From positions 1-26,119 of IMG/VR virus record IMGVR_UViG_3300028829_004128: a DNA stretch of 26,119 nucleotides; one strand, given 5' to 3'. Of the stretch, positions 5,424 to 18,166 are shown piece after piece (positions within the stretch are counted from its first letter, which is position 1; the number at the start of each line of letters is the position of its first letter). The position numbers and the translations under genes are program-made. The stretch is from a virus. Below the pieces are notes generated by a model. That model was not told the origin of the DNA and did not search any database. It was given only the letters and a program-made list of their open reading frames with translations.

Positions 5424-5454
5424 TTGGAATATTGAAAAATGTTTCGTATATTTG
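5424..5454 (+). promoter_or_regulatory. Bacteroidetes-type promoter for the NadM-NadV unit (P5424)
   Basis: TTG at 5424-5426 (TTTG from 5423), 20-nt spacer, TATATTTG at 5447-5454 preceded by TTTCG. It is 20 nt upstream of the ATG at 5475. The longer reading frame of nadM (ATG 5439) would begin inside this promoter. Confidence 0.85.
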
Positions 5455-5474
5455 TCTTAACTAAATTAAATGAT

Positions 5475-6467
5475 ATGGATTTAAAAGATGAAAGAATTGA
5501 ATTAAATGTACCACCATTGGTACACGTGCATGATTATGAGGTTGGGGTTATTGTTGCACGTATGCAAGTTCCAGAACTCCACCCAGTTCACAAACATTTA
5601 ATTGATACCGTTTGTGAGAACCACAAGAAGGTTATCATCTTCTTAGGTGTACCAGTTGTTGAACAAACACAAAGAAACCCATTAGACTTTGCATCTCGTA
5701 AAGCAATGATTCAACGTGATTATCCAAACATCACAGTCTTGCCAGTCAGAGACCAACGAGACAACAAAGTGTGGTCATATCTTCTTGACCAAAAAATACA
5801 AGAACCATTCGGAAATAGAAAAGCACTACTATACGGTAGTAGAGATTCCTTCATACCATTTTATCATGGTAGAAATCAAACAGTAGAACTTATTGGAAAT
5901 GACACTGACATATCTGGTAGTGATATTAGAAGAGCAGTGGCTAGAGAAGTAGTTGACGATGGTAACTTCCGTAAGGGTGTTGTATATGCCAACTATGGTA
6001 GATACCCAGTTATTATGCCATGTGCTGACATTGTGGTTTGGAATCGAGAAGATAATACAATCCTTTTAGGTCGTAAACCTAACGAGACACAATTCAGATT
6101 TATTGGTGGTCACGTTGAGGTTGGTGATTCTTGCTATGAATCAGCTGCATTGAAGGAGTTATCGGAAGAAGCACCAGGTCTTACAATCAATGAAAATATC
6201 AGTACCCTTAAGTATATCTGTAGTGGTAAGATTTCCGATTGGAGACACTCTAAAGAAACCAGTGAAATTTTCAGCACACTATTTTTAGCTACACGTATGA
6301 GTGGGTCAGCTAAAGCGGCTGACGATATCGAAGAAGTCAAATGGTTCCCAATTGATGAGGTTATGAACCATGAAGAATACTCAAAGATTATCGTTCCAGA
6401 ACATGTAGAGTTCTTCGGTAACCTTATGAATTACTTTTCTAAAGAATTACAAATAGAAAAAATATAG
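5475..6467 (+). CDS. nadM: bifunctional NMN adenylyltransferase / Nudix hydrolase (NadM-Nudix), 330 aa
   Basis: The N-terminal nucleotidyltransferase domain (about 20-160) has GVIVARMQVPELHPVH (24-39), the HxGH-type ATP-binding motif with Val for Gly (H36-P-V-H39), and ISGSDIRR (147-154), the ISxTxxR-type motif. The second domain (about 178-320) has a Nudix box from G211 (GGHVEVGD...KELSEEAPG) in which Lys replaces the usual Arg and one residue is inserted. This pairing is known from bacterial and phage NadM: NMN + ATP gives NAD+, and the Nudix half hydrolyses ADP-ribose-type compounds. I chose ATG 5475 because the upstream ATG (5439) lies within the promoter. NAMPT follows 3 bp downstream, so product and substrate are matched. 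Confidence 0.9.
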   Translation: MDLKDERIELNVPPLVHVHDYEVGVIVARMQVPELHPVHKHLIDTVCENHKKVIIFLGVPVVEQTQRNPLDFASRKAMIQRDYPNITVLPVRDQRDNKVWSYLLDQKIQEPFGNRKALLYGSRDSFIPFYHGRNQTVELIGNDTDISGSDIRRAVAREVVDDGNFRKGVVYANYGRYPVIMPCADIVVWNREDNTILLGRKPNETQFRFIGGHVEVGDSCYESAALKELSEEAPGLTINENISTLKYICSGKISDWRHSKETSEIFSTLFLATRMSGSAKAADDIEEVKWFPIDEVMNHEEYSKIIVPEHVEFFGNLMNYFSKELQIEKI

Positions 6468-6470
6468 ATT

Positions 6471-8072
6471 ATGAGTTTAAATAGAACAATTACAAGAAAG
6501 TTACAAGAAGCATTAGATGCTGATAATGGTGCACTTGCATTAAACACGATTGAAGAGTTGATGCCACAAATTGAAAAGGTATTAAACAGACCTAATAACT
6601 TAATCTTATGTAGTGATGCGTATAAGTATTCACATCATAAATTCTATCCAGAGAATACTGAGATAGTTCATTCTTACTTAGAGTCTAGAGGTGGTCGTTT
6701 TGAAAAGACAGTATTCTATGGTCTTCAAATCTACCTTAAGAGATTCTTAGAAGGTATTGCAATCACAGCGGAAGATGTTGATGAGGCATATGAGTACTTA
6801 GGTGATGAGAAGGGTACATTCGGTAGAGATGATGTATTCGATAGAACAAAGTTTGATTATATTGTCAAAGAGCATGGTGGGAAACTACCTATTCTTATCA
6901 AGGCGGCACCAGAAGGTACTGTTGTTGATTTCAAGAATGTTCTTATGACCATCGAAAATACAGATATGAACTGTGCATGGTTAACTAATTTCTTAGAGAC
7001 TATCCTCTTACAAGTATGGTATCCAATTACTGTAGCCACTCTTTCTAGAGAGGTTAAGAAGATTGCTCTTAAGTATTTCCAAAAGACAACTGACCATGAT
7101 GGTCCAACAACTGATTTCTTACTTAACTTCGTGTTAAATGATTTCGGTTTCAGAGGTGTATCTTCTGTAGAGTCAGCTAAGAATGGTGGTTCGGCTCACT
7201 TAGTAAACTTCCAAGGTTCTGACACCATAATAGCCAACACAGTTATCAATGATGTATACCACTCTAAGTTTAGAGGTATGAGTATTCCAGCAACGGAGCA
7301 TAGCATCATGACTATCAAGGGTGAAAAGGGAGAGGTTGAAATGATGAGAAGAACACTAGAACAGTTTCCAACAGGAATTGTGGCTTGTGTATCTGATTCA
7401 TATGATATCTTTAGAGCATGCTCACAATACTGGGGTGGGGAATTGAAGAACCTTATCTTAAGTAGACCAGCCGAAGCTGGAAACCAATTGGTTGTACGAC
7501 CAGATTCTGGTGACCCAGCAATGACACTTAAAGAGGTATTCAAAATCCTTTTCGATAAGTTTGGTTTCACTACTAACTCTAAGGGTTATAAGACACTTCC
7601 ACCACAAATCAGAGTGATTCAAGGTGATGGTGTGAATATCAATTCAATTGCTAAGATTTATGCAATGCTTGATGACCTTAAGATTTCAGCAGATAACCTA
7701 GTATTCGGTATGGGTGGTAAGTTATTACAAGCTGATGTAAATAGAGATACACAAAACTTTGCTACGAAAGCGTCTTTTGCGGTAATTGATGGTGTAGAGC
7801 ACGATGTGGTTAAGTCTCCAACAGAGATTGATGAGCATGGTAACTTCATCAAGTCATTCAAGAAATCTAAGTCTGGTAGACTTAAGCTTGTTAAGACAGC
7901 TAGTGGTTATGAGACAATTACGTCGAAGGACCCAGCATTTGATGTTGCTGAGGATGTTATGATACCAGTATTTGAAAATGGTGTTATCCTTAAGGAGCAT
8001 ACATTCGAAGAAGTGCGTGAACGTGCTGTTGTACGTGTTGAAGAATTAGAAACAGTTAAAGAAGTATACTAA
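6471..8072 (+). CDS. nadV: nicotinamide phosphoribosyltransferase (NAMPT/NadV), 533 aa
   Basis: Co-linear with NAMPT along its length: LCSDAYKYSHHKFYP (46-60), YLESRGG, KAAPEGTVV, VLMTIENTD, WYPITVATLSRE (183-194), FGFRGVSSVESA (225-236), LVNFQGSDT (244-252), SIPATEHS with the catalytic-site His277, VVRPDSGDP (341-349), RVIQGDG and FGMGGKLLQ. It joins nicotinamide and PRPP to form NMN. An N-terminal stretch of about 40 residues precedes the usual start of the fold. Phage homologues serve NAD+ reconstitution pathways. A relative, Namat, uses ADP-ribose pyrophosphate instead of PRPP and cannot be separated by eye; pairing with NadM argues for the NMN-forming version. Confidence 0.95.
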   Translation: MSLNRTITRKLQEALDADNGALALNTIEELMPQIEKVLNRPNNLILCSDAYKYSHHKFYPENTEIVHSYLESRGGRFEKTVFYGLQIYLKRFLEGIAITAEDVDEAYEYLGDEKGTFGRDDVFDRTKFDYIVKEHGGKLPILIKAAPEGTVVDFKNVLMTIENTDMNCAWLTNFLETILLQVWYPITVATLSREVKKIALKYFQKTTDHDGPTTDFLLNFVLNDFGFRGVSSVESAKNGGSAHLVNFQGSDTIIANTVINDVYHSKFRGMSIPATEHSIMTIKGEKGEVEMMRRTLEQFPTGIVACVSDSYDIFRACSQYWGGELKNLILSRPAEAGNQLVVRPDSGDPAMTLKEVFKILFDKFGFTTNSKGYKTLPPQIRVIQGDGVNINSIAKIYAMLDDLKISADNLVFGMGGKLLQADVNRDTQNFATKASFAVIDGVEHDVVKSPTEIDEHGNFIKSFKKSKSGRLKLVKTASGYETITSKDPAFDVAEDVMIPVFENGVILKEHTFEEVRERAVVRVEELETVKEVY

Positions 8073-8073
8073 G

Positions 8074-8547
8074 ATGGGAGAATTTGATAACTTTAAGAAC
8101 TCACGCATGAATGTGGAGATTAAAGAGACTGGAAAGAAAATCATGGCTGATGCGCTTAAGCGTAAAGAAGAGAAAGTTAAGAACTCACACATGAAAAAAG
8201 ATAAGATGTTAAAATTGCTTGACGCAAATTCAGTATTACTAAATGAAATTGGTAATATAATAAACTACGGTGATTGTAGTGATGAAATTGTGGACGGACT
8301 TAAATTACCATGGGCATTTGAGGAAGGTAGTGGAATGATATACTACGCTAGACATGAAGATGACGATATCTATGATTACGAAGGTTTTCAAGTGTCATCT
8401 AAGGGAGCTAAGGGTGAAGAATTCTTCATGGGTGAATCAGATGGTATTACATATGTTATGGGATATCAAGAAAGTGATAATTGGGATGATACATATATCT
8501 TAATTCTAGATAATGAGAATAAAGAAAGTCTTACGATAGATGAGTAA
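8074..8547 (+). CDS. hypothetical protein, 157 aa
   Basis: Starts 1 bp after the nadV stop. Residues 1-50 are a basic helix (NVEIKETGKKIMADALKRKE, VKNSHMKKDKMLKLL); the rest is acidic (HEDDDIYDYEGFQ, YQESDNWDDTYILILDNENK). No family recognised. The charged two-part layout could suit a binding or inhibitor protein, but nothing specific supports this. The 3' end overlaps the lipoprotein gene by 8 bp. Confidence 0.7.
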   Translation: MGEFDNFKNSRMNVEIKETGKKIMADALKRKEEKVKNSHMKKDKMLKLLDANSVLLNEIGNIINYGDCSDEIVDGLKLPWAFEEGSGMIYYARHEDDDIYDYEGFQVSSKGAKGEEFFMGESDGITYVMGYQESDNWDDTYILILDNENKESLTIDE

Positions 8548-8737
8548 ACTATTTGTCTTATTAATAACCATGATGTTAACATCATGTGGAATATCTAAAA
8601 GGTGTGAATACTTTGTCATAGAAGAAACCCTTGTGGTTCCAGCATGGCACAGTCATCATTGTGACAATAATCAATGTTACTGTATTTATATCGAAGGGTC
8701 AACACATAATGTTATTGATACAATATGGATTAAATAA
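8540..8737 (+). CDS. small predicted lipoprotein, 65 aa
   Basis: The N-terminus MSKLFVLLITMMLTSCGIS is a textbook type II signal peptide: short positive start, hydrophobic core, lipobox LTSC with Cys16. The mature chain would be about 50 residues with further Cys (HHCDNNQCYC) that may bind metal or form disulfides. It would be anchored in the inner or outer membrane of a Gram-negative host. Phage lipoproteins of this size are often superinfection-exclusion or receptor-blocking factors (for example Llp of T5); that role here is a guess. Overlaps the preceding gene by 8 bp. Confidence 0.75.
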   Translation: MSKLFVLLITMMLTSCGISKRCEYFVIEETLVVPAWHSHHCDNNQCYCIYIEGSTHNVIDTIWIK

Positions 8738-8745
8738 TTATAGAA

Positions 8746-8976
8746 ATGAGTGAATATATAACACCAAAAATAGAGGACTTGAGATATGGTCAAACATTGG
8801 AATATAATCAAGGTACTACCTATTGGAGAGATGGTGAAATGATATTGTCATTTGATGTTGATAGATGGAAGGAGGTTGTATATGATAGGACTTTTGTTGA
8901 CAGAGGATATCTAGAATATTGGTTGACAAATGATTTAATAGATAATTCAAAACTGATAAGGATAAAGAAAGTTTAA
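8746..8976 (+). CDS. hypothetical protein, 76 aa
   Basis: ATG 8746 follows an A-rich leader (ATTATAGAA). The peptide is acidic-aromatic (DLRYGQTLEYNQGTTYWRDG, DVDRWKEVVYDRTF) and ends LIRIKKV. It resembles short phage proteins with a WR...D.W...Y pattern, without a named family. No membrane segment. Function unknown. Confidence 0.65.
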   Translation: MSEYITPKIEDLRYGQTLEYNQGTTYWRDGEMILSFDVDRWKEVVYDRTFVDRGYLEYWLTNDLIDNSKLIRIKKV

Positions 8977-8987
8977 TTGAAAATATA

Positions 8988-9287
8988 ATGTATAAAAGGG
9001 AAATAAATATTACAGTTGATGAAGATGAGGTTATACCTAAGAAGTATAATATATCAATAGCTATGCCTAAGGACCAAGCAATAATGAGTGTCAAAGAAAT
9101 TACCCATACATTAATTGGTAGTGTTTCCATGATGATTAAGAGTTGTGAACATAATGAAGTTGGGATTAAGGATTATGAATTACTTGAAGAAGTTATTGAA
9201 CATCTTAATTCTGAGTTCGGGTCTATAAAATCATATAATGATTTGTATACTAATGAAGTATATATAAAAAAAACTGATGAAGAATAA
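8988..9287 (+). CDS. hypothetical protein, 99 aa
   Basis: ATG 8988 is preceded by GAAAATATA. The protein starts with a strand (REINITVDEDEVIPKKYNISI), then two helices (DQAIMSVKEITHTLIGSVS, YELLEEVIEHLNSEFGSI), giving a compact alpha/beta look. No recognised family or active-site motif. The 3' end overlaps the deaminase-like gene by 11 bp, suggesting translational coupling. Confidence 0.65.
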   Translation: MYKREINITVDEDEVIPKKYNISIAMPKDQAIMSVKEITHTLIGSVSMMIKSCEHNEVGIKDYELLEEVIEHLNSEFGSIKSYNDLYTNEVYIKKTDEE

Positions 9288-9987
9288 AGAAGAAAATTGT
9301 AATCATATATATTCTAGAGGGTTAGGTGAACCTAGACCAAGACTTTGTGAACACTGTAAAAAACCAGAGGTTTGTCAAGCATGTCATGGTGACGGTGATA
9401 TTCATATGTGTTGTATAGTTTGTACGGGTGCTGATAATGGTGATATGAAGTCTGAGCATACGTGCACAGAATTTAGACCATCACCACTTGAGCTTATGTA
9501 TAAGATGCACATTGCTAAGGATGAAATTGTAACTGTGATTCGGAATAGCTCACTAACTAAGTGGGATTGGCGTTGGGTGGACCGAGCGAATTATGTTTCT
9601 GAGTATTCTAAGGATAAGAACACCAAGACTGGTGCTGTTATCGTAGATGATGATAACACTGAACTTGTAATGGGTTACAATGGCTTTCCGAGAGGTGCTG
9701 ACGATGATAATCATCCGAAGAGATATTGTTCAAGAGGTATTATTCAAGGTGGTATCAATAAATTGTATACAGAGAAACCAGACTTCAATCATCATAAGTG
9801 GGGTGACTCATGGCTTGAAGCACTTATTATGCTTAGGGAGTGTGGTGTAGAGGTTATATGGACCAACGTTGAACCAGAAGATAAGTTTGCTAATTGTTGT
9901 GATTGTGGTAAACCTAGAAATTGGGCTGGTAAGTCATCATCCCAAGCTAGATGTGCTAATTGTTTAGAAGATTATCTAGAAAAATAA
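9277..9987 (+). CDS. dCMP-deaminase-like protein lacking the catalytic segment, with Cys-rich flanks, 236 aa
   Basis: Residues 102-145 match phage dCMP deaminases (DRANYVSEYSKDKNTKTGAV, GYNGFPRGADDDN), and 151-193 match their later part (CSRGIIQGGI, WLEALIMLRECGVEV). The roughly 40 residues that normally lie between, holding HAE and the first Cys of PCxxC, are missing: the chain passes from HPKRY150 straight to C151SRGIIQGGI. So two of the three zinc ligands and the catalytic Glu are gone. The N-terminus is a separate Cys/His-rich region (CEHCKKPEVCQACHGDGD, CCIVC) and the C-terminus a zinc ribbon (CCDCGK...CANC). Both frame halves are intact, so this looks like an in-frame deletion and possible repurposing, not decay. 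Confidence 0.75.
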   Translation: MKNKEENCNHIYSRGLGEPRPRLCEHCKKPEVCQACHGDGDIHMCCIVCTGADNGDMKSEHTCTEFRPSPLELMYKMHIAKDEIVTVIRNSSLTKWDWRWVDRANYVSEYSKDKNTKTGAVIVDDDNTELVMGYNGFPRGADDDNHPKRYCSRGIIQGGINKLYTEKPDFNHHKWGDSWLEALIMLRECGVEVIWTNVEPEDKFANCCDCGKPRNWAGKSSSQARCANCLEDYLEK

Positions 9988-10199
9988 TGGAATATAAAGC
10001 ACTTGTATTAAAGGAAGGGTCTAAGTACCAAGAGTTTATGGTCTATATAACGGAAATAGGTGAATGGGGTACATGTGATGCACCAGAGTTATATCCTATG
10101 ACGTGTACCCTTGAAGGATTGAAAGCTTTTTATCCTAATTCAAATTGGGATGATATAACATTAGTTACGGTAAAACTTGATATAATGAAAAATAATTAA
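9987..10199 (+). CDS. hypothetical protein, 70 aa
   Basis: Start taken at ATG 9987, which overlaps the previous stop by one base (TAATG), a junction type used repeatedly here; the in-frame ATG at 9960 would overlap 27 bp. The peptide begins EYKALVLKEGSKYQEFMVYI and contains FYPNSNWDDITLVTVKLD, a small alpha/beta pattern. No family recognised. The promoter for the next gene lies over its last codons. Confidence 0.65.
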   Translation: MEYKALVLKEGSKYQEFMVYITEIGEWGTCDAPELYPMTCTLEGLKAFYPNSNWDDITLVTVKLDIMKNN

Positions 10200-10207
10200 T
10201 ATATTTG
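10177..10207 (+). promoter_or_regulatory. Bacteroidetes-type promoter, leaderless arrangement (P10177)
   Basis: TTG at 10177-10179, 20-nt spacer, TATATTTG at 10200-10207. The -35 part lies inside the end of the previous gene. The box ends 4 nt before ATG 10212, so transcription would begin at or within a base or two of the start codon. Confidence 0.8.
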
Positions 10208-10211
10208 CAGT

Positions 10212-10412
10212 ATGGATGATAATAGAAGAGTATTAGTTTGTGAAGCAAACAAAGAAAAAGGGGTAAATCAAATGAGTGTTAAGGAGATTAAAGATTGGGA
10301 ACCAACCAAGGTTTCATACATTGGGACATCAGCTTATTTTAATGTTAATGGTACATTTTACTCTATGAGTTCAATTGATTTTAGAGAAATTTACGCACAC
10401 AAATTGAAGTAA
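10212..10412 (+). CDS. hypothetical protein, 66 aa
   Basis: First gene behind P10177, with almost no leader. The start at 10212 is supported by the promoter position; an in-frame Met at 10272 is an alternative. The peptide (VLVCEANKEKGVNQMSVKEIK, YIGTSAYFNVNGTFYSMSSIDF) ends with a small beta-rich segment. No family recognised and no membrane segment. Confidence 0.65.
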   Translation: MDDNRRVLVCEANKEKGVNQMSVKEIKDWEPTKVSYIGTSAYFNVNGTFYSMSSIDFREIYAHKLK

Positions 10413-10415
10413 TTA

Positions 10416-10904
10416 ATGGGAGTACTTAGAGCGATAAGAAAACAACACTTCGAAGGGCTTGAGAAACACCCTAAGTGGGGTTTCACATATTGGGCTTTTG
10501 ATTTGCATGGTACGGTGGTCAAACCAAATTTTGATGGTGACAACTTACCTAAGGAATTTTATCCACATGCTAAGGAAGTACTTCAAATGTTATCTAAGAG
10601 AGATGATATAGTAATGTATATGTATACTTGTTCTCACCCACATGAGCAAGACCAATATATCGATTACTTTAAACAGTTCGATATTGACTTTAAATGGGTT
10701 AATGAAAACCCAGAAGTTCCAACAGATAATAGTGGGTATGGTTACTATGAAGACAAACCATACTTCAATGTACTCTTCGAAGATAAGGCTGGGTTTGACC
10801 CAAGAGAGGATTGGATAGATGTAAGAGATTACTTTAGAGGTAGAAACTCATGGTTCCTAAGAAACTTCTTTAAACTTAAAAGATTATTTAAAAATGGATT
10901 TTAA
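10416..10904 (+). CDS. HAD-superfamily phosphatase-like protein (DLHGT type), 162 aa
   Basis: HAD motifs in order: FDLHGTVV with nucleophile D29 (motif I), YTCSHP with T71/S73 (motif II), K114 in the YYEDKPYF segment, and FEDKAGF with E122-D123 (motif IV). The second Asp of the usual DxD is His31, as in a known subset of phage and bacterial DLHGT proteins; in phosphatases that Asp is the general acid, so activity may differ. A likely role is nucleotide or small-molecule dephosphorylation. It starts 3 bp after the previous stop and overlaps the oxygenase gene by 11 bp. Confidence 0.8.
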   Translation: MGVLRAIRKQHFEGLEKHPKWGFTYWAFDLHGTVVKPNFDGDNLPKEFYPHAKEVLQMLSKRDDIVMYMYTCSHPHEQDQYIDYFKQFDIDFKWVNENPEVPTDNSGYGYYEDKPYFNVLFEDKAGFDPREDWIDVRDYFRGRNSWFLRNFFKLKRLFKNGF

Positions 10905-11451
10905 AAGATTTAGACACGAAGTACCTAACTTCTTAACAAAGGAAGAGTGTGTTGGATTTATCCAATTTGCTGAAACACAAGGTTTCGAGGAAGCATTGGT
11001 AAACACCAAAGCCAAGGGTCAAGTTATGATGAAAGAGCTTAGGGATAATGATAGACATATCTTTCAAGCTAGAGACTTGGCAACACAACTATGGGGACTT
11101 ATGCAAGGCTTAGTCCCAGCTGAGGTTCATGGTTGGACAGCGATTGGTCTTAACGAGCAATTCAGAGTCTATAGATACAAGGATGGTCAACAGTTTAAGA
11201 CACATCCAGATGGTTCATTCAAGAGAGATGAAACGGAACACTCAAAGATAACGGTAATACTTTACCTTAACGATGAGTTCGAGGGTGGTGAGACAGAGTT
11301 TGTTATGCCACATGAGATAGTAAAACCAGAAGCTGGAAAGTTATTATTATTTTCTCATGGTCAATTACATAAGGGTAACCCAGTTCCAGAAGGAACAAAG
11401 TATGTCATCAGAACTGATGTTATGTACAAAAACTTTGACATTGAAGTATAA
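10894..11451 (+). CDS. 2-oxoglutarate/Fe(II) oxygenase, prolyl-4-hydroxylase type, 185 aa
   Basis: The double-stranded beta-helix core is clear: RVYRYKDGQQFKTHPD with iron ligands H104-x-D106, VILYLNDEFEGGETEF, GKLLLFSHGQLHKG with the distal iron ligand H159, and YVIRTDVMY with R173 for 2-oxoglutarate. All cofactor residues are present, so an active dioxygenase is expected. Phage relatives are common and mostly of unknown substrate (protein, or modified DNA base). It abuts the Mom-like gene by a TAATG junction, so the two may act on a common target; that is inference. Confidence 0.9.
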   Translation: MDFKRFRHEVPNFLTKEECVGFIQFAETQGFEEALVNTKAKGQVMMKELRDNDRHIFQARDLATQLWGLMQGLVPAEVHGWTAIGLNEQFRVYRYKDGQQFKTHPDGSFKRDETEHSKITVILYLNDEFEGGETEFVMPHEIVKPEAGKLLLFSHGQLHKGNPVPEGTKYVIRTDVMYKNFDIEV

Positions 11452-12332
11452 TGGATGTTGATAGACTTAACAACTACGATAAAGAACATTGTTGGCAGTA
11501 CGACATAAGACTTACAAATTACGAGGAAGACCTTCAATTAGCTGGTCTTACTGATGAGTATGTTAAGACTCTTAGAGTACCAGACTTTGAGTTTAGAGTT
11601 GTTACTGATAAGAAAGAAAGAAAAGAATTAAAGGTATTCATTGAAAGACATGAATGGTTAGGTAACTTGTCCCAATTTACAACACATTGGTTTGGGTGTT
11701 ACCACAAGGATATACTAGCTGGTGTTATCTTATTTAACGTACCAAATACGTTCTCTAAGATGCTAGGTGAGAATACACCACGCTTAGAGAGATTGATTAG
11801 TAGAGGGGCTTGTATTTCATGGTCACCAAAGAACTTAGCAAGTTCGATGTTAATGTGGTCAATACAATGGATGGTTGAGAATACCGACTTTAGGTTATTC
11901 ACAGCTTACTCTGACCCAACAGCAAGGGAGTTAGGTACGATTTACCAAGCGTGTAACTTCTACTACTTAGGTCAGAAGGCTGGAACAACAAAGAGATACA
12001 TCAATCCTTACACTGGTAAGATGGTATCGGATAGGTACTTTAGACAGAAGACAGCGTATAAGAAGTATGCTAGTGAGATGGGGATTGAATGGGTAAAGAA
12101 TTGGAATCATCCAACTGGTATGAGTTGGGAGAATATACCAGATGATATTGAAAAGCGACTTAGGGATTACTCAAAGAAAAAGCAGTCAGAATCTGATGTA
12201 ACGATATTTCCACAGAAACATAAGTACGCTTATATTCTTGGAAGAGATAAGAGGGAAACGAAGCATTTGCAAAGAATGTTTGAAAATAAGATAAAGACCT
12301 ATCCATATCCAAAGGATAGAAAAAAAGATTAG
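11451..12332 (+). CDS. Mom-like GNAT-fold protein, possible DNA modification enzyme, 293 aa
   Basis: Residues about 45-190 resemble the phage Mom family: HWFGCYHKDILAGVILF, RLERLISRGACISWSPKN, LASSMLMWSIQWM, LFTAYSDPTARELGTIYQA and NFYYLGQ, matching the 'L.RL', 'S..I' and 'sYaD...GhiGtiYqA.nf.Y.G' pattern. Mom of phage Mu converts adenine in DNA to N6-carbamoylmethyl-adenine and blocks restriction. The C-terminal 100 residues are basic (KTAYKKYASEMG, KRLRDYSKKKQ, KRETKHLQRMF), fitting DNA contact. Whether it modifies DNA, and with what group, is unknown; a plain acetyltransferase is the alternative. Confidence 0.65.
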   Translation: MDVDRLNNYDKEHCWQYDIRLTNYEEDLQLAGLTDEYVKTLRVPDFEFRVVTDKKERKELKVFIERHEWLGNLSQFTTHWFGCYHKDILAGVILFNVPNTFSKMLGENTPRLERLISRGACISWSPKNLASSMLMWSIQWMVENTDFRLFTAYSDPTARELGTIYQACNFYYLGQKAGTTKRYINPYTGKMVSDRYFRQKTAYKKYASEMGIEWVKNWNHPTGMSWENIPDDIEKRLRDYSKKKQSESDVTIFPQKHKYAYILGRDKRETKHLQRMFENKIKTYPYPKDRKKD

Positions 12333-12334
12333 TT

Positions 12335-12652
12335 ATGAAAATAAAAGGATTTACAAGAGTATACACGGATGAAGATTTTAAAGGTCTTGGTCCAGATGAA
12401 ATGGGTGTTATTATAGATGATATCATAAAAGAAGATACTAAGAATTGGACAGCTAAAGATAAAAGATTGATTGATGAGTCAATGAAGAACATAGCTGACC
12501 GTCCAATATGGGATGCTATATATCAAGCTAGGAAATGGGCTTTTTTAGAGGCAAGAGCATCAACAGTTATGATGGAAACCGAAGAAGAACGAAAAGAATG
12601 GTTCGATAAACACATAACAACTTTGGATGATTTGATTAAAATTAAAAACTAA
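12335..12652 (+). CDS. hypothetical protein, 105 aa
   Basis: Two bp after the Mom-like gene and TAATG-coupled to the sirtuin gene. Soluble, acidic and helical (DEMGVIIDDIIKEDTKNWTA, WDAIYQARKWAFLEARAS, METEEERKEWFDKH). I do not recognise it. The position between a modification-type gene and a sirtuin suggests joint expression only. Confidence 0.65.
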   Translation: MKIKGFTRVYTDEDFKGLGPDEMGVIIDDIIKEDTKNWTAKDKRLIDESMKNIADRPIWDAIYQARKWAFLEARASTVMMETEEERKEWFDKHITTLDDLIKIKN

Positions 12653-13395
12653 TGAAAAAAATAGCAGTATTTACAGGGGCTGGAATATCAGCCGAGAGCG
12701 GAATCCCGACATTCCGTGATAAGATGACAGGACTTTGGGAGAAGTATGACACGGATATCGTTGCATCATCGGAAGGATGGTATAGCCACAAAGAAGAGGT
12801 CTTAGAGTTCCATAATGAGTTGCGTAAGCAAATCTATGATACGAAGCCTAACGAAGCGCACAAGGCTTTAAAAGACCTTGAGAAGCACGGACAAGTTACT
12901 ATCATTACACAGAATATCGACGACCTTCATGAACGTGCAGAGTCAAGTAATATTCTTCATTTACATGGTGAGTTGCTTAAGTGTCGTAGTACATTTAACC
13001 CATCATTGAGTTATGATTGTAGAGGTAGTATTGAGATAGGTGATAAGTGTGAGAAGGGTTCTCAATTGAAACCAGATACAGTATTGTTCGGTGAGATGCC
13101 AAGGAATGTTGATGAAGGTTATACTGCATTGTGTAACGCTGATTATGTTATCATAGTTGGGTGTAGTTTCCAAATTGGGTACACACTTACAATGTTCCAT
13201 AACATCAAGCACGAGGCTAAGGTATTCTTTGTAGACCCAGAGCCAGTAAAGTATTTAGATAGTTATGGTATGGACATGAAATACATTCAAGAACCAGCAA
13301 CAACTGGTGTTAGAAGTGTGGTAGATAAGATTATAGCTGAGATTGAGGCAAGTGAGTTAGAAGAAGCTAATCCAACATTTGGTGGTAATGACTAA
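12652..13395 (+). CDS. cobB: Sir2-family NAD+-dependent protein deacylase, 247 aa
   Basis: Sirtuin motifs are complete: FTGAGISAESGIPTFRD (7-23), TQNIDDLHERA (86-96), catalytic H105 in LHLHGE, zinc-type Cys at 111, 123 and 133, FGEMP (146-150) and GCSFQIG (170-176). It should remove acyl groups from lysines, using NAD+ and releasing nicotinamide, the substrate of the phage NAMPT. The class III pocket pair Tyr-x-x-Arg (as in CobB 'FYNARR') reads H54-x-x-L57 here, so preference for succinyl or malonyl groups is not expected. The length (247) and single domain match bacterial CobB, not the longer Sir2 defence proteins. Confidence 0.92.
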   Translation: MKKIAVFTGAGISAESGIPTFRDKMTGLWEKYDTDIVASSEGWYSHKEEVLEFHNELRKQIYDTKPNEAHKALKDLEKHGQVTIITQNIDDLHERAESSNILHLHGELLKCRSTFNPSLSYDCRGSIEIGDKCEKGSQLKPDTVLFGEMPRNVDEGYTALCNADYVIIVGCSFQIGYTLTMFHNIKHEAKVFFVDPEPVKYLDSYGMDMKYIQEPATTGVRSVVDKIIAEIEASELEEANPTFGGND

Positions 13396-13585
13396 AAGTG
13401 AAAAATTTGTAGAGGGGGTTAATATTATCGCTAAGTATATGACGGTTGAAAATATGGGTGTTCATGGTGAACATGACATAATTTACTTCGGTTCTTATGA
13501 TAGTGTTACAGATGATAATGATATAAAGCGACTTGATGAATTGGGTTGGTTTGAGGAAGAGGAATCTTGGGCAATATTTACATAA
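13388..13585 (+). CDS. hypothetical protein, 65 aa
   Basis: Start at ATG 13388, overlapping the sirtuin stop by 8 bp; an in-frame TTG at 13379 is less likely. The peptide ends DDNDIKRLDELGWFEEEESWAIFT; the 'LDELGWF....W..F' ending is common to many small phage proteins of unknown role. Acidic, no membrane segment. Confidence 0.7.
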   Translation: MTKSEKFVEGVNIIAKYMTVENMGVHGEHDIIYFGSYDSVTDDNDIKRLDELGWFEEEESWAIFT

Positions 13586-13604
13586 TATAAATAAAAAAAG
13601 AAAA

Positions 13605-14039
13605 ATGAGTTTAATTAAATTTGAAGTAAAGAAAGAGCATCTTATGCTCCTAAAGAATCTAGAATGGTCAATGACTGACACTAATCACATCTTATCTATC
13701 AATGATAGAGACAATGATGATGCCGATGACATAATTCTAACACCATTCGGTGGTGCTGACTTGATGTTGGATATCGGTGAAATCATATATGGTTTAGATG
13801 AGACTGTTGAAATCAAGGTGATTAGAACACTAGGAGAGGATGAAATCGTTGATTCAGACGATGGTGCTGAAATGGGATTCGCTACATATACTGATGAACA
13901 AGTAGCTGAAATGACTGAGTTGTTTTTAGGACTTGCAACAGCATTGGACATCTGTCTTTACAGACAAGCATTTGAAGTTGGTCATTTCAAGACGAAGTTT
14001 CACATGCGTGATTGGAAGAAGTACGAACCAAAGAAATAA
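13605..14039 (+). CDS. conserved phage-type hypothetical protein, 144 aa
   Basis: Start at ATG 13605, preceded by an A-rich leader (AAAAAAAGAAAA); a longer frame to 13533 would overlap the previous gene by 53 bp. Residues from about 95 (YTDEQVAEMTELFLGLATAL, YRQAFEVGHFKTKFHMRDWK) have a helix plus 'fe.G.yk...h.RdWk' ending seen in a family of phage proteins of unknown function. The middle is acidic (RDNDDADDIILTPFGGADLM). No enzymatic motif visible. Confidence 0.75.
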   Translation: MSLIKFEVKKEHLMLLKNLEWSMTDTNHILSINDRDNDDADDIILTPFGGADLMLDIGEIIYGLDETVEIKVIRTLGEDEIVDSDDGAEMGFATYTDEQVAEMTELFLGLATALDICLYRQAFEVGHFKTKFHMRDWKKYEPKK

Positions 14040-14044
14040 CTAGG

Positions 14045-14533
14045 ATGAAACGAGAAGATATTAAAGAATTATATACCATTGATATTATTGATGGGACACT
14101 AACATTGATTAAGAGAAAAGACATTGATGAATGGACTACTAATCGTGATAAATATTCCTATGTTAGCAATATCCTTATCAACCCAAAGATTGAAATCCTA
14201 CCAGCTAGTGGTACGCTTAATATTAGTGGACTTAGGTTAGCTTATAATAAGGTTAGAAATATAGAATCTTATGATTGGGTACCCAAACCACTTGATGAAT
14301 TGAAAGATGGATGGGAAGATATGTTATTCCATTCAGATGAAGATATAATTGAGATGGATGTGGTTGACCGTAAAGGATTTTTAGGTTTTAATAGAGTTGT
14401 TCGCAAGGGTGTGAAGTTCTTAAAAGCTGGTTTTTATTTACGAACAACTGGTTATATTGAAACCCAATCTACATCTAATTATAGAATTGTTGGGTACAAA
14501 GAAGGTGAAGTTAAATCTAGAATTTTAGGGTAA
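14045..14533 (+). CDS. hypothetical protein, 162 aa
   Basis: Start at ATG 14045, 5 bp after the previous stop and preceded by TAACTAGG; a start at 14012 would overlap 28 bp. Alternating strands (YTIDIIDGTLTLIKRKDIDE, IEILPASGTLNISGLRLAYN) and a C-terminal RTTGYIETQSTSNYRIVGYK suggest a beta-rich fold. No family recognised. Last gene before promoter P14537. Confidence 0.7.
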   Translation: MKREDIKELYTIDIIDGTLTLIKRKDIDEWTTNRDKYSYVSNILINPKIEILPASGTLNISGLRLAYNKVRNIESYDWVPKPLDELKDGWEDMLFHSDEDIIEMDVVDRKGFLGFNRVVRKGVKFLKAGFYLRTTGYIETQSTSNYRIVGYKEGEVKSRILG

Positions 14534-14536
14534 AAC

Positions 14537-14567
14537 TTGTTTAATTGAAAAAGATTTAGTATCTTTG
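14537..14567 (+). promoter_or_regulatory. Bacteroidetes-type promoter for prs and sigma genes (P14537)
   Basis: TTG at 14537-14539, 20-nt spacer, TATCTTTG at 14560-14567 preceded by TTTAG. It lies in the 61-bp gap and is 27 nt from the ATG at 14595. Confidence 0.85.
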
Positions 14568-14594
14568 GTTATTATTAACTAATAAAAAAGTTTA

Positions 14595-15620
14595 ATGGAA
14601 AGTATTATATTCAGTGTTGACGGGAGGGATGACCTTGTACATGAGATTAGTGAAGAATTGTGTAATGTTAATATTGGTCACCACGTTGTTACTGGAAAGA
14701 TGAACACTGAGCGATTCTCCGATGGGGAAGTATGTGCAGATTTCACTACCTCAGTTAGAGGTAAACGGATTTATCTAGTATCTTCACCGAACACAGCTGA
14801 GAAACTTATTCAATTAAACTTTGCTATTGATGCGGCTAAGAGGGCTGGTTCTAAGGATATTATACCTATAATCCCTTACTTCCCATATGCAAGACAAGAT
14901 AAGAAGGACCAAGCTAGAGGACCCATCGGTGCTAAGGTTATTGCAGAGATGATTGAAAATAGAGGTGCTACTTCGGTAATTACTTTCGACCTTCACGCAG
15001 ACCAAATACAAGGATTCTTTAACATACCAGTAATACACATGGAAGGTAAGTTCCTATTCGATAGATACATCTTCGAACTATATCGTGACAAGTATGGTGA
15101 TAATATGGTATTATGTGCCCCAGATGCTGGTGCTGGTAAGAGAGTCAAGGGGTTTAGAGACCAACTTAAGAGTAGATGGGATATAGACCTACCAATAGTT
15201 TATATTGATAAGACAAGAGCTAAGGCAAATGTTATTGATACAATGACTATTATTGGTGAAGTACGAACTAAGAATGTAATCATTATAGATGATATGTGTG
15301 ACACTGCTGGTACGCTTTGTAAGGCGGCTGAACATATTATAGAGGCTGGTGCTATGAGTGTTAGGTCTATTGTAACGCACGGTGTGTTAAGTGGTCCAGC
15401 ACTTGAAAGAATATATGATGCTAAGGAAACTGGGATTATGAACGACTTTGTTTGTTCTGATTCACTTTCAGTTGAAGGGAAGAGTATAACATTAGAGCAA
15501 GGTGTTTATCCCCAAGCTAAGGACTTTATAACTCAAATATCAACAGCAAGGCAAATTGCTAAGGCAATCATTGCGACTGAGGAACATAGAAGTGTTGAAC
15601 ATTTAAAGATGGCTCACTAA
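14595..15620 (+). CDS. prs: ribose-phosphate pyrophosphokinase (PRPP synthetase), 341 aa
   Basis: Class I Prs motifs are present: RFSDGEV (40-46), YFPYARQDKKDQARGPIGAK (95-114), DLHADQIQGFF (132-142, with H134), the flexible catalytic loop IDKTRAKANV (K206, R208) and the PRPP loop IIIDDMCDTAGTL (229-241). It makes PRPP from ribose-5-phosphate and ATP, the co-substrate of NAMPT at 6471. Length is slightly above the usual 310-320, with an insert around 150-200. Phage relatives annotated this way can instead phosphorylate ADP-ribose (Adps of NARP1); sequence reading alone does not exclude this. Its own promoter places it apart from nadM-nadV. Confidence 0.92.
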   Translation: MESIIFSVDGRDDLVHEISEELCNVNIGHHVVTGKMNTERFSDGEVCADFTTSVRGKRIYLVSSPNTAEKLIQLNFAIDAAKRAGSKDIIPIIPYFPYARQDKKDQARGPIGAKVIAEMIENRGATSVITFDLHADQIQGFFNIPVIHMEGKFLFDRYIFELYRDKYGDNMVLCAPDAGAGKRVKGFRDQLKSRWDIDLPIVYIDKTRAKANVIDTMTIIGEVRTKNVIIIDDMCDTAGTLCKAAEHIIEAGAMSVRSIVTHGVLSGPALERIYDAKETGIMNDFVCSDSLSVEGKSITLEQGVYPQAKDFITQISTARQIAKAIIATEEHRSVEHLKMAH

Positions 15621-16210
15621 TGACAACAGTTGAGATTATTGAAGGTTGTAAGAGGGGCGATTCTAGAGCTCAACAAGAACTCTATTCAACTCAGTATAAC
15701 AAATTAAGGGGTACTTGTATTAAACACTCACCTCAAGATGGTGAAGATATGACTCAAGATGCTTTCATGAAAGCTTATACCTTATTTGATAAGTTCGAAG
15801 GTGATAGTGAAGGTCAATTATTTGCTTGGCTTAAATCTTTAGCGATAAATGAACGCTTTTGGGAAGGTCAGAGAACTGGTAGATTTAAAGAAGATGTAAC
15901 TGATTTTACAGAACTTTCATTTTTACATCCATCAGCTAATGATGATGAAGAAGAAATAAATGATACTACTAAAGAGGATAGTCAAACTAATGATATTATG
16001 TGGGCAATTGATATGCTTGATGATGAGAAAAGAGAAGTTTTCAATCTAATAGCAATTGATGGGTATACTATAACCAAAGCCGCAAAGAAGTTAAATTTTA
16101 GGGTTAGTTGTGTTAGATATAGATATACTAAAGGGCAGAAAAAGATTAAAATGTTTATTAGAAATAAGGGGTTATACTCAAAATTAAATAAATTATCAAA
16201 TAATGAATAA
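15620..16210 (+). CDS. ECF-type sigma-70 factor (first of a tandem pair), 196 aa
   Basis: Starts in a TAATG overlap with prs. Region 2 spans about 5-75: EIIEGCKRGDSRAQQELY, then DGEDMTQDAFMKAYTLFDKF and LFAWLKSLAINE (the 'aEDl.Qe.F.k.' and 'fxxWL..ia.N' signatures). An acidic linker (DDEEEINDTTKEDSQTND) leads to region 4 (130-180): LDDEKREVFNLIAIDGYTIT then AAKKLNFRVSCVRYRYTKGQ as the helix-turn-helix. The plan is that of Bacteroidetes ECF factors. Region 4 deviates from consensus, so promoter choice may be unusual. It would redirect host RNA polymerase core. Confidence 0.85.
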   Translation: MTTVEIIEGCKRGDSRAQQELYSTQYNKLRGTCIKHSPQDGEDMTQDAFMKAYTLFDKFEGDSEGQLFAWLKSLAINERFWEGQRTGRFKEDVTDFTELSFLHPSANDDEEEINDTTKEDSQTNDIMWAIDMLDDEKREVFNLIAIDGYTITKAAKKLNFRVSCVRYRYTKGQKKIKMFIRNKGLYSKLNKLSNNE

Positions 16211-16781
16211 AATGGATAACCATAACCACAAAGAAGTAATTGATGGGTGTAAGCGTTTTGAACGCAACTACCAAGAAATCTTTTTTAACTACTATTACCC
16301 TAGACTTATAGCGGTTAGTCTTAGAATGTCACCAAATAAAACCATTGCTGAGGATTTATTACAAGATGCCTTTATCAAGATATTTATGAATATAGGTTCT
16401 ATGAATAAACATAATGTAGAAGTTGTTTACACTTGGTCTAAAAAAATCTTGAGCAATATTATTTATGATTATTATAGACAGAACCCTCACAGATTACTCT
16501 TAAATATGGATGAGGTTATTGATGGAGTTCTTTATGTGGATAATGATGAAGATGAAGATGATAACTATCTTGATAGTAAAGACGTTACCCCAAAGATGTT
16601 ACAAGAGGCTATTGAGACTCTGTCACCACAATATAAATTAGTCTTCTCTATGTATCTTATGGAAGGATACCAACACAATGAAATAAGTGAAATATTAGGT
16701 ATATCAATATCAACATCTAAGACCAATTATATGAAAGCTAGACGACACTTACAAAAAATACTTGAACCATGTACACCATAA
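16203..16781 (+). CDS. ECF-type sigma-70 factor (second of a tandem pair), 192 aa
   Basis: Overlaps the first sigma gene by 8 bp. Region 2: EVIDGCKRFERNYQEIFF, NKTIAEDLLQDAFIKIFMNI, YTWSKKILSNIIYDYYRQ. Region 4: AIETLSPQYKLVFSMYLMEG then HNEISEILGISISTSKTNYM and KARRHLQKIL, a near-consensus helix-turn-helix. The openings IIEGCKR and VIDGCKR of the pair suggest an old tandem duplication with divergent DNA-reading ends, hence different promoter sets. A later in-frame Met at 16212 is an alternative start. The linker is acidic (DNDEDEDDNYLDSKD). Confidence 0.9.
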   Translation: MNKMDNHNHKEVIDGCKRFERNYQEIFFNYYYPRLIAVSLRMSPNKTIAEDLLQDAFIKIFMNIGSMNKHNVEVVYTWSKKILSNIIYDYYRQNPHRLLLNMDEVIDGVLYVDNDEDEDDNYLDSKDVTPKMLQEAIETLSPQYKLVFSMYLMEGYQHNEISEILGISISTSKTNYMKARRHLQKILEPCTP

Positions 16782-16951: not shown

Positions 16952-17321
16952 AACAGCTAGGTTAGCTAAGAAGAAGGGTTTTAAGGTCCAAGTGTTTAAA
17001 TATTATGATACAAACGGAATGACCTATTATGGTATGAATTCGACTGGTATTATGTTAGGTTGGGATTGGAATAGTTCATTTAAAGAGCGAGTTTCAGCAC
17101 CACTTCAATCACAATTACAAGCATGGCTTAGAGAGAAGCATAATATACACATGTATACAAAGATGTTCCATGACTCTCTGGAAGAGAAAACAACATTTAC
17201 ATGTGATACACTTAAATTAAATGATGGTCGAGTTAGCTTCAAATCACCAATGTTGGAAACATATGAAGATGCGTTGGAGTACGCACTTAACGAAGGATTA
17301 AAATTAATAGAGAAAAAATGA
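16935..17321 (+). CDS. conserved phage-type hypothetical protein, 128 aa
   Basis: Begins VKIETARLAKKKGFKVQVFK and contains APLQSQLQAWLREKHNIHMY and TYEDALEYALNEGLKLIEKK. The combination 'tA.lAKekGF', 'pTQS.LqkWLREkh.i.i' and 'sye.ALE..L.egL.li' is a recurring phage protein pattern of unknown function that is frequent in Bacteroidetes phages. Its stop overlaps the Thg1-like start as ATGA. Confidence 0.8.
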   Translation: MEVKIETARLAKKKGFKVQVFKYYDTNGMTYYGMNSTGIMLGWDWNSSFKERVSAPLQSQLQAWLREKHNIHMYTKMFHDSLEEKTTFTCDTLKLNDGRVSFKSPMLETYEDALEYALNEGLKLIEKK

Positions 17322-18166
17322 AAAGTTTAGGAGATAGAATGAAAGAGTATGAAGGGGCTTATAAGTATAAGCTAACCCCTAGGTCATACATTATTATTAG
17401 ACTTGATGGGAAGAACTTCTCTAAATATACAAAGAACCTAGAGAAACCATTTGACACCGATTTATCAGATGCTATGAACCAAACTGCTGTAGCAGTATGT
17501 GAAGAATTTAACGGAAAGTTCGCATACACACAGTCAGATGAGATTAGTGTATTGATTACTGATGTGGGAAATATTGAAGCACAACCAATGTTTGGTGGTA
17601 GTCTTCAAAAGTTATGTTCACTATCAGCTAGTGTTGCAACTGCTAAGTTCAATGAGGTTAGGAATAAACAATATCTAATGAATATGATGTTAGAATCAGA
17701 GATTCCAATGGAAGAATTGATTAAAAATCAAATGTATGGGGATATCGTAGACTTCCCAAAGCAAGCATTCTTTGATGCTAGGGTCTTTATTGTGCCTTCT
17801 GCAACAGAAGCTATCAATCACATGATTTGGAGACAACAAGACGCTACTAGAAATAGTATCAGCATGGCTGGTCAAGCTAACTTCTCACACAAGGAACTTC
17901 AAGGGCTTAACGGTAGTCAAGTTCAAGAGAAGTTGTTTAGTGATGCTAACATCAATTGGAACGACTTCCCAACGAAGTTCAAGCGTGGTGTATGTATATT
18001 CAAAGAAGAATACGTTCGTATGAATCATCATCACGTTGTTGGTGGTAAAAACGTTAAGTCGGTTGATACAACCACAACCATAAGACACAGAATGAAAATT
18101 GACATGGAAACACCCGTTTTCACTCAAGATACAGGTTATCTACAAGACCTAATCCCAACTATTTAA
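17318..18166 (+). CDS. thg1: Thg1-like 3'-5' nucleotidyltransferase, 282 aa
   Basis: Thg1 family features: YIIIRLDGKNFSKYTK with metal ligand D30, KPFDTDLSDAM, then YTQSDEISVLI with S73-D74-E75 completing the two-metal polymerase site, and WRQQDATRNSISMAGQANFS (about 170-190), the family's second signature. Thg1 adds G to the 5' end of tRNA-His; bacterial and phage Thg1-like proteins mainly rebuild 5' ends of truncated tRNAs in the 3'-5' direction using the complementary strand. That suits repair of tRNAs cut by host defence nucleases. ATGA-coupled to the preceding gene; a stem-loop overlaps its stop codon. Confidence 0.92.
   Translation: MKSLGDRMKEYEGAYKYKLTPRSYIIIRLDGKNFSKYTKNLEKPFDTDLSDAMNQTAVAVCEEFNGKFAYTQSDEISVLITDVGNIEAQPMFGGSLQKLCSLSASVATAKFNEVRNKQYLMNMMLESEIPMEELIKNQMYGDIVDFPKQAFFDARVFIVPSATEAINHMIWRQQDATRNSISMAGQANFSHKELQGLNGSQVQEKLFSDANINWNDFPTKFKRGVCIFKEEYVRMNHHHVVGGKNVKSVDTTTTIRHRMKIDMETPVFTQDTGYLQDLIPTI

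Follow-up and report, generated by a model that had tools for sequence, protein, structure and literature searches.

Reconstitution of NAD+ by phages is a recently recognised counter-defence. NAD+ reconstitution pathway 1 (NARP1) proceeds in two steps via ADP-ribose pyrophosphate (ADPR-PP), and its enzymes, Adps and Namat, routinely appear in annotations under the names Prs and NAPRT/NAMPT; the two ICP1 proteins recorded as PRS and NAPRT are now believed to be Adps and Namat (PMC11559045). NARP2 leads from nicotinamide via nicotinamide mononucleotide (NMN) to NAD+ and is described as a way around NAD+ depletion (PMC12028318). Phage NadM and NadV are well described (PMC9503650), also for snow phages (PMC11097641), and a report on KVP40-like vibriophages already describes NAMPT, an NMN adenylyltransferase (NMNAT) and a sirtuin in one phage (PMC5107563). 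Here, we analyse a locus on the IMG/VR contig IMGVR_UViG_3300028829_004128, the complete 26,119 bp of which are referred to as the window. Every gene shown by open reading frame (ORF) and family searches resides on the + strand, among them genes for a NadM-Nudix fusion protein, NAMPT, a HAD-like protein, a sirtuin (Sir2) and the phosphoribosyl pyrophosphate (PRPP) synthetase Prs. We consider it probable that these genes constitute a dispersed nicotinamide-salvage operon of Bacteroidota to which a sirtuin was added and which is able to recycle both products of NADases.

The genes for NadM-Nudix, NAMPT, Sir2 and Prs had been named in an earlier note on this DNA, and all four proved to be intact ORFs at the positions listed in Table 1 with their catalytic residues kept. 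Gene families were assigned by Pfam, PHROGs and NCBIfam searches in combination with alignments. NAMPT from the window matches PF18127 (NAMPT_N), PF04095 (NAPRTase) and PHROG 448 (E = 3e-143) and retains all ten catalytic positions checked in the alignment, including the equivalents of D219 and H247. Prs is recognised by Pfam (PF13793 and PF00156) and NCBIfam. In an alignment with the human PRPS1 and Bacillus Prs proteins, it exhibits the class I PRPP synthetase motifs DLHAxQIQGFF (as DLHADQIQGFF), PDAG and DDMxDTxGT (as the loop DDMCDTAGT). As the enzymes of NARP1 commonly carry just these annotations (PMC11559045), the proteins could in principle be Adps and Namat acting via ADPR-PP, a reading that we consider highly improbable and reject. 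The pair from Escherichia phage ECO319P1 (Namat GSYTYQYVTRD, Adps DDICDGGRT) served as the reference instead of FelixO1, for which no Prs or NAMPT match was found in bases 1-50,000. At the position of the published selectivity-clamp motif of Namat, GSX.X.X.TRD (PMC12774641), the window NAMPT reads GMGGKLLQADVNRD, i.e., the clamp motif is absent, and the loop DDMCDTAGT in Prs differs from DDICDGGRT and is devoid of the Adps-type element DGGRT. The window NAMPT scores 404 bits against mammalian NAMPT versus 227 bits against the better of 9ke8 and 9w5w, the best PDB matches of ECO319P1 Namat. Furthermore, Prs is encoded 6.5 kb away from NAMPT and not adjacent to it, and NadM, which NARP1 does not need, is present. 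What the locus shares with NARP1 are homologous folds (PRPP-synthetase and NAMPT families) and, provided that the loop proposed below runs, the same net outcome, namely that ADP-ribose and nicotinamide are turned back into NAD+. Since the signatures of Namat and Adps are absent while the catalytic positions of NAMPT are kept, the encoded route is, as judged by sequence motifs, the NARP2-type conversion of nicotinamide via NMN to NAD+ combined with a canonical PRPP synthetase. The same conversion by NAMPT and NadM-Nudix is attributed to nadV/nadM of vibriophage KVP40, and a SIR2 gene was found here in KVP40 as well. In contrast to the window, which has Prs and a HAD-like protein in addition to the pair, no Prs was found in KVP40, and the tree places the window NAMPT nearer to NAMPT from Bacteroidota than to KVP40 NadV.

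The two halves of NadM are not equally evident from sequence. While the Nudix half gave a clear NUDIX match in family searches, the NMNAT half was weak (NCBIfam bifunctional NMNAT/Nudix, E = 3e-8, far under the cut-off). An AlphaFold2 (AF2) model derived from 43 homologues had a mean pLDDT of 92.7, and its six best PDB matches in Foldseek were NadM-type NMNAT/ADP-ribose pyrophosphatases (2qjt, 2r5w, 2qjo), aligned over the full length. Global TM-scores for these matches were about 0.45, which we read as a different placing of the two domains of NadM. The model thus clearly predicts the two-domain bifunctional NMNAT/ADP-ribose pyrophosphatase fold of the Francisella and Synechocystis enzymes, although the window protein shares only about 18% identity with them and carries a two-residue insertion before the HxxH motif. 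HxxH and the glutamates of REUxEE are conserved in the 43 homologues, and an SxSxxR-type motif is also present in the window NadM. Most bacterial NadD enzymes prefer nicotinic acid mononucleotide, and this would explain why a phage making NMN brings its own NMN adenylyltransferase. Taken together, motifs, NadM fold and catalytic residues support, as a potential, what had been claimed earlier, namely a gene set for the formation of NAD+ from ribose-5-phosphate (R5P), nicotinamide and ATP via NMN.

Transcriptional organization was deduced from promoter patterns. A scan for E. coli-type Sigma-70 promoters was uninformative (57 found versus 53 expected) and the Bacteroidota pattern was used instead. 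TTG-N17-23-TAnnTTTG occurs nine times on the + strand of the window, where 2.4 ± 1.6 occurrences are expected. Upstream of NadM the full pattern is present in 13 of 18 related loci and the -7 box in 17 of them; upstream of Prs the full pattern was found in 7 of 14 sister loci. It is rare before NAMPT (2 of 18) and was never found before Sir2 (0 of 14), the background being 4% throughout. This distribution argues for a common promoter of NadM and NAMPT and a separate one for Prs, the latter just as had been proposed. The NadM promoter spans an upstream ATG at 5439 and this leaves 5475 as the start codon, in agreement with the original assignment; the start codon of the nearest relative occupies the corresponding position. 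A two-gene operon under one promoter, as postulated in the earlier note, is correct with regard to the common promoter but too narrow with regard to its extent. NadM and NAMPT are spaced by 3 nt, the next gene begins at 8074, only 1 nt beyond the NAMPT stop codon, and no + strand terminator-like site follows NAMPT in a terminator scan. The transcription unit therefore probably comprises more than two genes. At the other end of the locus, two tandem genes for ECF-like sigma factors (15620-16210 and 16203-16781) overlap the end of prs and belong to the same transcription unit.

Table 1 Promoters and genes of the NAD+ locus in the window.
Feature	Position	Strand	Evidence
Bacteroidota-type promoter TTG-N20-TATATTTG of the NadM-NAMPT unit	5424..5454	+	Pattern enrichment, conservation in sister loci
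NadM-Nudix, predicted NMN adenylyltransferase fused to ADP-ribose-pyrophosphatase-type Nudix domain	5475..6467	+	AF2 model, Foldseek, motifs
NAMPT, nicotinamide phosphoribosyltransferase	6471..8072	+	Pfam, PHROG, catalytic positions, tree
HAD-like protein, cap-less, motif I D-x-H-x-T	10416..10904	+	Conservation in phages, cellular operon, fold match
Sirtuin, SIR2 family, CobB-like protein deacylase	12652..13395	+	Pfam, PHROG, motifs
Bacteroidota-type promoter TTG-N20-TATCTTTG of the Prs unit	14537..14567	+	Pattern, sister loci
Prs, canonical ribose-phosphate diphosphokinase with R5P-type loop DDMCDTAGT	14595..15620	+	Pfam/NCBIfam, alignment

The window is a fragment of a larger phage, and its source is probably a giant phage of Bacteroidota. 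The Bacteroidota-type promoters point to such a host, in agreement with the prediction that Bacteroidetes are the hosts of phages whose genomes exceed 634 kb (PMC7162821) and with the 68% identity between the window NadM and that of the 634,780-bp phage LR745206. Relatives of the window at the DNA level were not found in the phage collection.

The cellular counterparts of the locus also lead to the Bacteroidota. Bacterial genomes were scanned for NadM, and all fractions given for cellular loci refer to the 80 loci listed. NAMPT is encoded directly downstream of NadM in 74 of them, nearly all from Bacteroidota, and in 31 a gene of the PRPP-synthetase family resides near the NadM-NAMPT pair. The combination had been called unusual; this is not supported by these numbers and by the co-occurrence of NAMPT, NMNAT and sirtuin described for KVP40-like phages (PMC5107563). 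Two sequence classes of PRPP synthetase are involved. Canonical Prs proteins (L190, L195, L196) are about 42% identical to the phage enzyme and their genes are separated from their neighbours by gaps of 1-24 nt, while divergent ones (25-28%), encoded in Mucilaginibacter and others, carry the loop DDMIRSGGS, which is neither of the Prs nor of the Adps type. The latter presumably resemble the class II enzymes of plants. In Mucilaginibacter (L157:12348-13274 and other loci), this divergent relative follows NAMPT.

In the phylogenetic tree, the window NAMPT falls into a clade of 12 phage sequences (SH-aLRT 95) that is sister to 19 sequences from Bacteroidota (96), with a support of 100 for the joint branch. 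The NadM-NAMPT(-HAD)(-Prs) operons of Bacteroidota contain the same genes as the phage locus, with identities of 55-60% for NAMPT and about 50-59% for the HAD-like protein, and that of Marivirga (L164) even has the same order. The phage copy differs from these operons in that it extends over 10 kb with accessory genes, has a sirtuin between the HAD-like protein and Prs and is equipped with two phage promoters. On the basis of the NAMPT tree and the cellular NadM-NAMPT(-Prs) loci, the phage set may most simply be regarded as a captured Bacteroidota salvage operon. The sirtuin itself, which is identified by a SIR2 match (PF02146, 1e-37), by PHROG 2162 and by the motifs GAGISAESGIPTFRD, TQNID and HLHG, occurs in none of the 80 cellular NadM loci listed, and its addition by the phage lineage is the best explanation.

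The phage sample comprised 81 NadM-bearing loci; it was assembled with peptide patterns and contains near-duplicates as well as incomplete contigs. Flanking genes encode NAMPT of some class at 74 of these loci, Sir2 at 23 and Prs at 21. The gene order across these loci is NadM, NAMPT, Sir2, Prs, and at least 13 exhibit the same four-gene order (NadM median identity 45%; identities of 38-57% are no proof of isofunction). In the 13 loci chosen for having all four genes, the intervening window genes are mostly absent, indicating turnover. Exceptions other than the gene for the HAD-like protein are the dCMP-deaminase-like gene at 9277 and the small gene at 10212, each kept in nine of the 13. A second set, selected independently of the four genes, consisted of 18 loci that have the YqeY-like marker upstream and extend for at least 9.9 kb downstream. 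All 18 encode NAMPT and the HAD-like protein, 15 encode Sir2 and 12 encode Prs. In 12 of the 81 loci, the place after NadM is taken by a divergent NAMPT (L008:18983-20641, L002:13443-15101 and ten others) that is only about 24% identical to the window protein with all catalytic residues kept. No locus among the 81 contains both classes, and well-supported branches of the NadM tree force at least five changes of the NAMPT-class label, which suggests repeated exchange of equivalent NAMPT enzymes in related phages. Two of the divergent genes (L062:11064-13652 and L063:11067-13655) bear an intein-like insert within the active-site motif RPDSG. In LR756500 (L011; 20454-21641 and 22322-23122), the gene present instead of NAMPT downstream of NadM codes for a nicotinate phosphoribosyltransferase of the PncB type and lies close to one for an ADP-ribosylglycohydrolase.

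The fifth member of the set, not linked to it previously, is the HAD-like protein, a polypeptide of 162 amino acids that was absent from the gene list of the earlier note. Its gene is found not only in every one of the 18 marker-defined loci but also in 13 of 13 four-gene loci, and in 12 Bacteroidota genomes it lies inside the cellular NadM-NAMPT(-Prs) operon, abutting NAMPT or Prs. The order is NadM-NAMPT-HAD(-Prs) in Fulvivirga, Marinigracilibium, others and Marivirga, where Prs is included, and NadM-NAMPT-Prs-HAD in Cyclobacteriaceae. A profile search for further cellular copies added only two weak matches. Phage and cellular copies are not freely mixed in the HAD tree, which is poorly resolved. 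According to the structural model (pLDDT 88), for which BT_0820, a cap-less HAD protein, is a fold match (Z 11.8, root mean square deviation 3.7, 119 residues aligned), the predicted fold is that of HAD proteins. In nearly all copies, including the window protein, motif I reads D-x-H-x-T rather than DxDxT, and D29, H31, S73, K114 and D123 are invariant in 33 sequences. Our best guess, made with low confidence, is that the protein hydrolyses a phosphorylated compound that arises in the pathway as an intermediate or by-product. A HAD gene next to nadV in KVP40 was considered as a counterpart and dismissed because its product has no similarity to the window protein.

From gene content and fold, the following sequence of reactions can be proposed. 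NADase activity, exerted by a host defence system or the phage sirtuin, would release nicotinamide and ADP-ribose or a derivative thereof. ADP-ribose pyrophosphatases form AMP and R5P, and the Nudix half of NadM would do so here. Prs would then convert R5P and ATP to PRPP, NAMPT would combine PRPP with nicotinamide to NMN, and the NMNAT half of NadM would adenylate NMN to NAD+, the HAD-like protein perhaps hydrolysing a phosphorylated by-product or intermediate. In this way, both halves of cleaved NAD+ could be put to use again within the same cell, and the nicotinate branch of the host would not be required. The gene set would probably keep NAD+ available during infection. A role in counter-defence is plausible because NARP2 is described as a way around NAD+ depletion (PMC12028318) and because Acb1-like and Mom-like genes are present in the window. 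Two earlier suggestions need modification. Recycling of by-products by sirtuin and Nudix genes is most simply assigned to the Nudix half of NadM itself, as indicated by the fold match, whereas the sirtuin stands outside the cellular operon and consumes NAD+. Independence from the PRPP pool of the host is too strong a claim, since Prs needs R5P and ATP from the host and its PRPP could feed nucleotide synthesis.

Several observations weigh against the proposed recycling operon. The window NadM departs from the family consensus, with HPVH for HxGH and KELSEEAPG for the Nudix box REUxEExG, and the sirtuin drains NAD+. Prs need not serve NAD+ synthesis only, because it resides in its own transcription unit together with two genes for ECF-like sigma factors. 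In relatives with genomes of 634-642 kb, prs is located 50-460 kb from NadM and the sirtuin, where present, is likewise encoded elsewhere in the genome, and Tunturi_5, LR756500 and KVP40 have NadM but lack Prs. Prs might accordingly be functionally unrelated to NAMPT and NadM, a gene of the sigma-factor operon or of nucleotide metabolism that lies nearby by chance, with its order reflecting shared ancestry. Its own promoter, the overlap with the sigma-factor gene at 15620 and the large distance to NadM in phages of 634-642 kb are in line with this. We nevertheless regard it as rather improbable, because genomes of Bacteroidota have a PRPP-synthetase-family gene of either sequence class directly after NAMPT and because Prs stays in the phage loci while the intervening genes turn over.

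It also appears unlikely, if somewhat less so, that the set serves to boost metabolism in general, providing NAD+ and PRPP for the replication of a very large phage genome with no specific role against depletion. After all, the same operon serves ordinary metabolism in cellular Bacteroidota, Prs feeds all nucleotide synthesis, Microcystis phage MaAM05 has Prs with no match to the NAPRTase family, and dCMP-deaminase-like and nucleoside-deoxyribosyltransferase-like genes are present in the window. On the other hand, NAMPT plus NMNAT is the published anti-depletion route NARP2 (PMC12028318), and the Acb1-like and Mom-like genes are located in the same window. The two roles are not mutually exclusive. 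Returning to the salvage operon with an added sirtuin, a more far-reaching version can be put forward only tentatively and is possible rather than probable: phages would possess a closed NAD+ cycle in which ADP-ribose is recycled. The Nudix half of NadM would provide R5P for the phage Prs, and ordinary enzymes would lead both products of an NADase attack back to NAD+, an outcome like that of NARP1 but reached by a different chemistry. The HAD-like protein would be a fifth enzyme integral to this cycle and common to phages and Bacteroidota chromosomes, and in the phosphoribosyltransferase slot two NAMPT classes would have been exchanged repeatedly under defence pressure.

Our literature search, outside of which most subscription journals lay, found no report of phages in which Prs, NAMPT and NadM are combined and ADP-ribose is recycled, of a NadM-NAMPT-PRPP-synthetase operon in Bacteroidota, of an extension by Prs and HAD or of an origin from a captured operon. 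The locus suggests that one version of NAD+ reconstitution originated from a Bacteroidota salvage operon, and it adds PRPP supply and a HAD-like protein to the NAD+ kit of phages. It also leads to the prediction that the ribose of ADP-ribose should turn up in NAD+. Bacterial nicotinamide salvage may include a component that has not been named, for which the HAD-like protein offers a concrete candidate.

Further genes in the window deserve mention. An assignment of 833-1300 as a macro domain was dropped because the product matches the A1S_2505 phage family, and tRNA genes are not present in the window. The region 1290-1856 encodes a 2H-phosphoesterase-like protein that scores above the Pfam cut-off for Acb1 (anti-CBASS) and contains HVT and HAT motifs. 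A Mom-like DNA-modification protein (11451-12332) adjoins a 2-oxoglutarate (2OG)-Fe(II) oxygenase (10894-11451), and a Thg1-like tRNA-His guanylyltransferase is encoded at 17318-18166.

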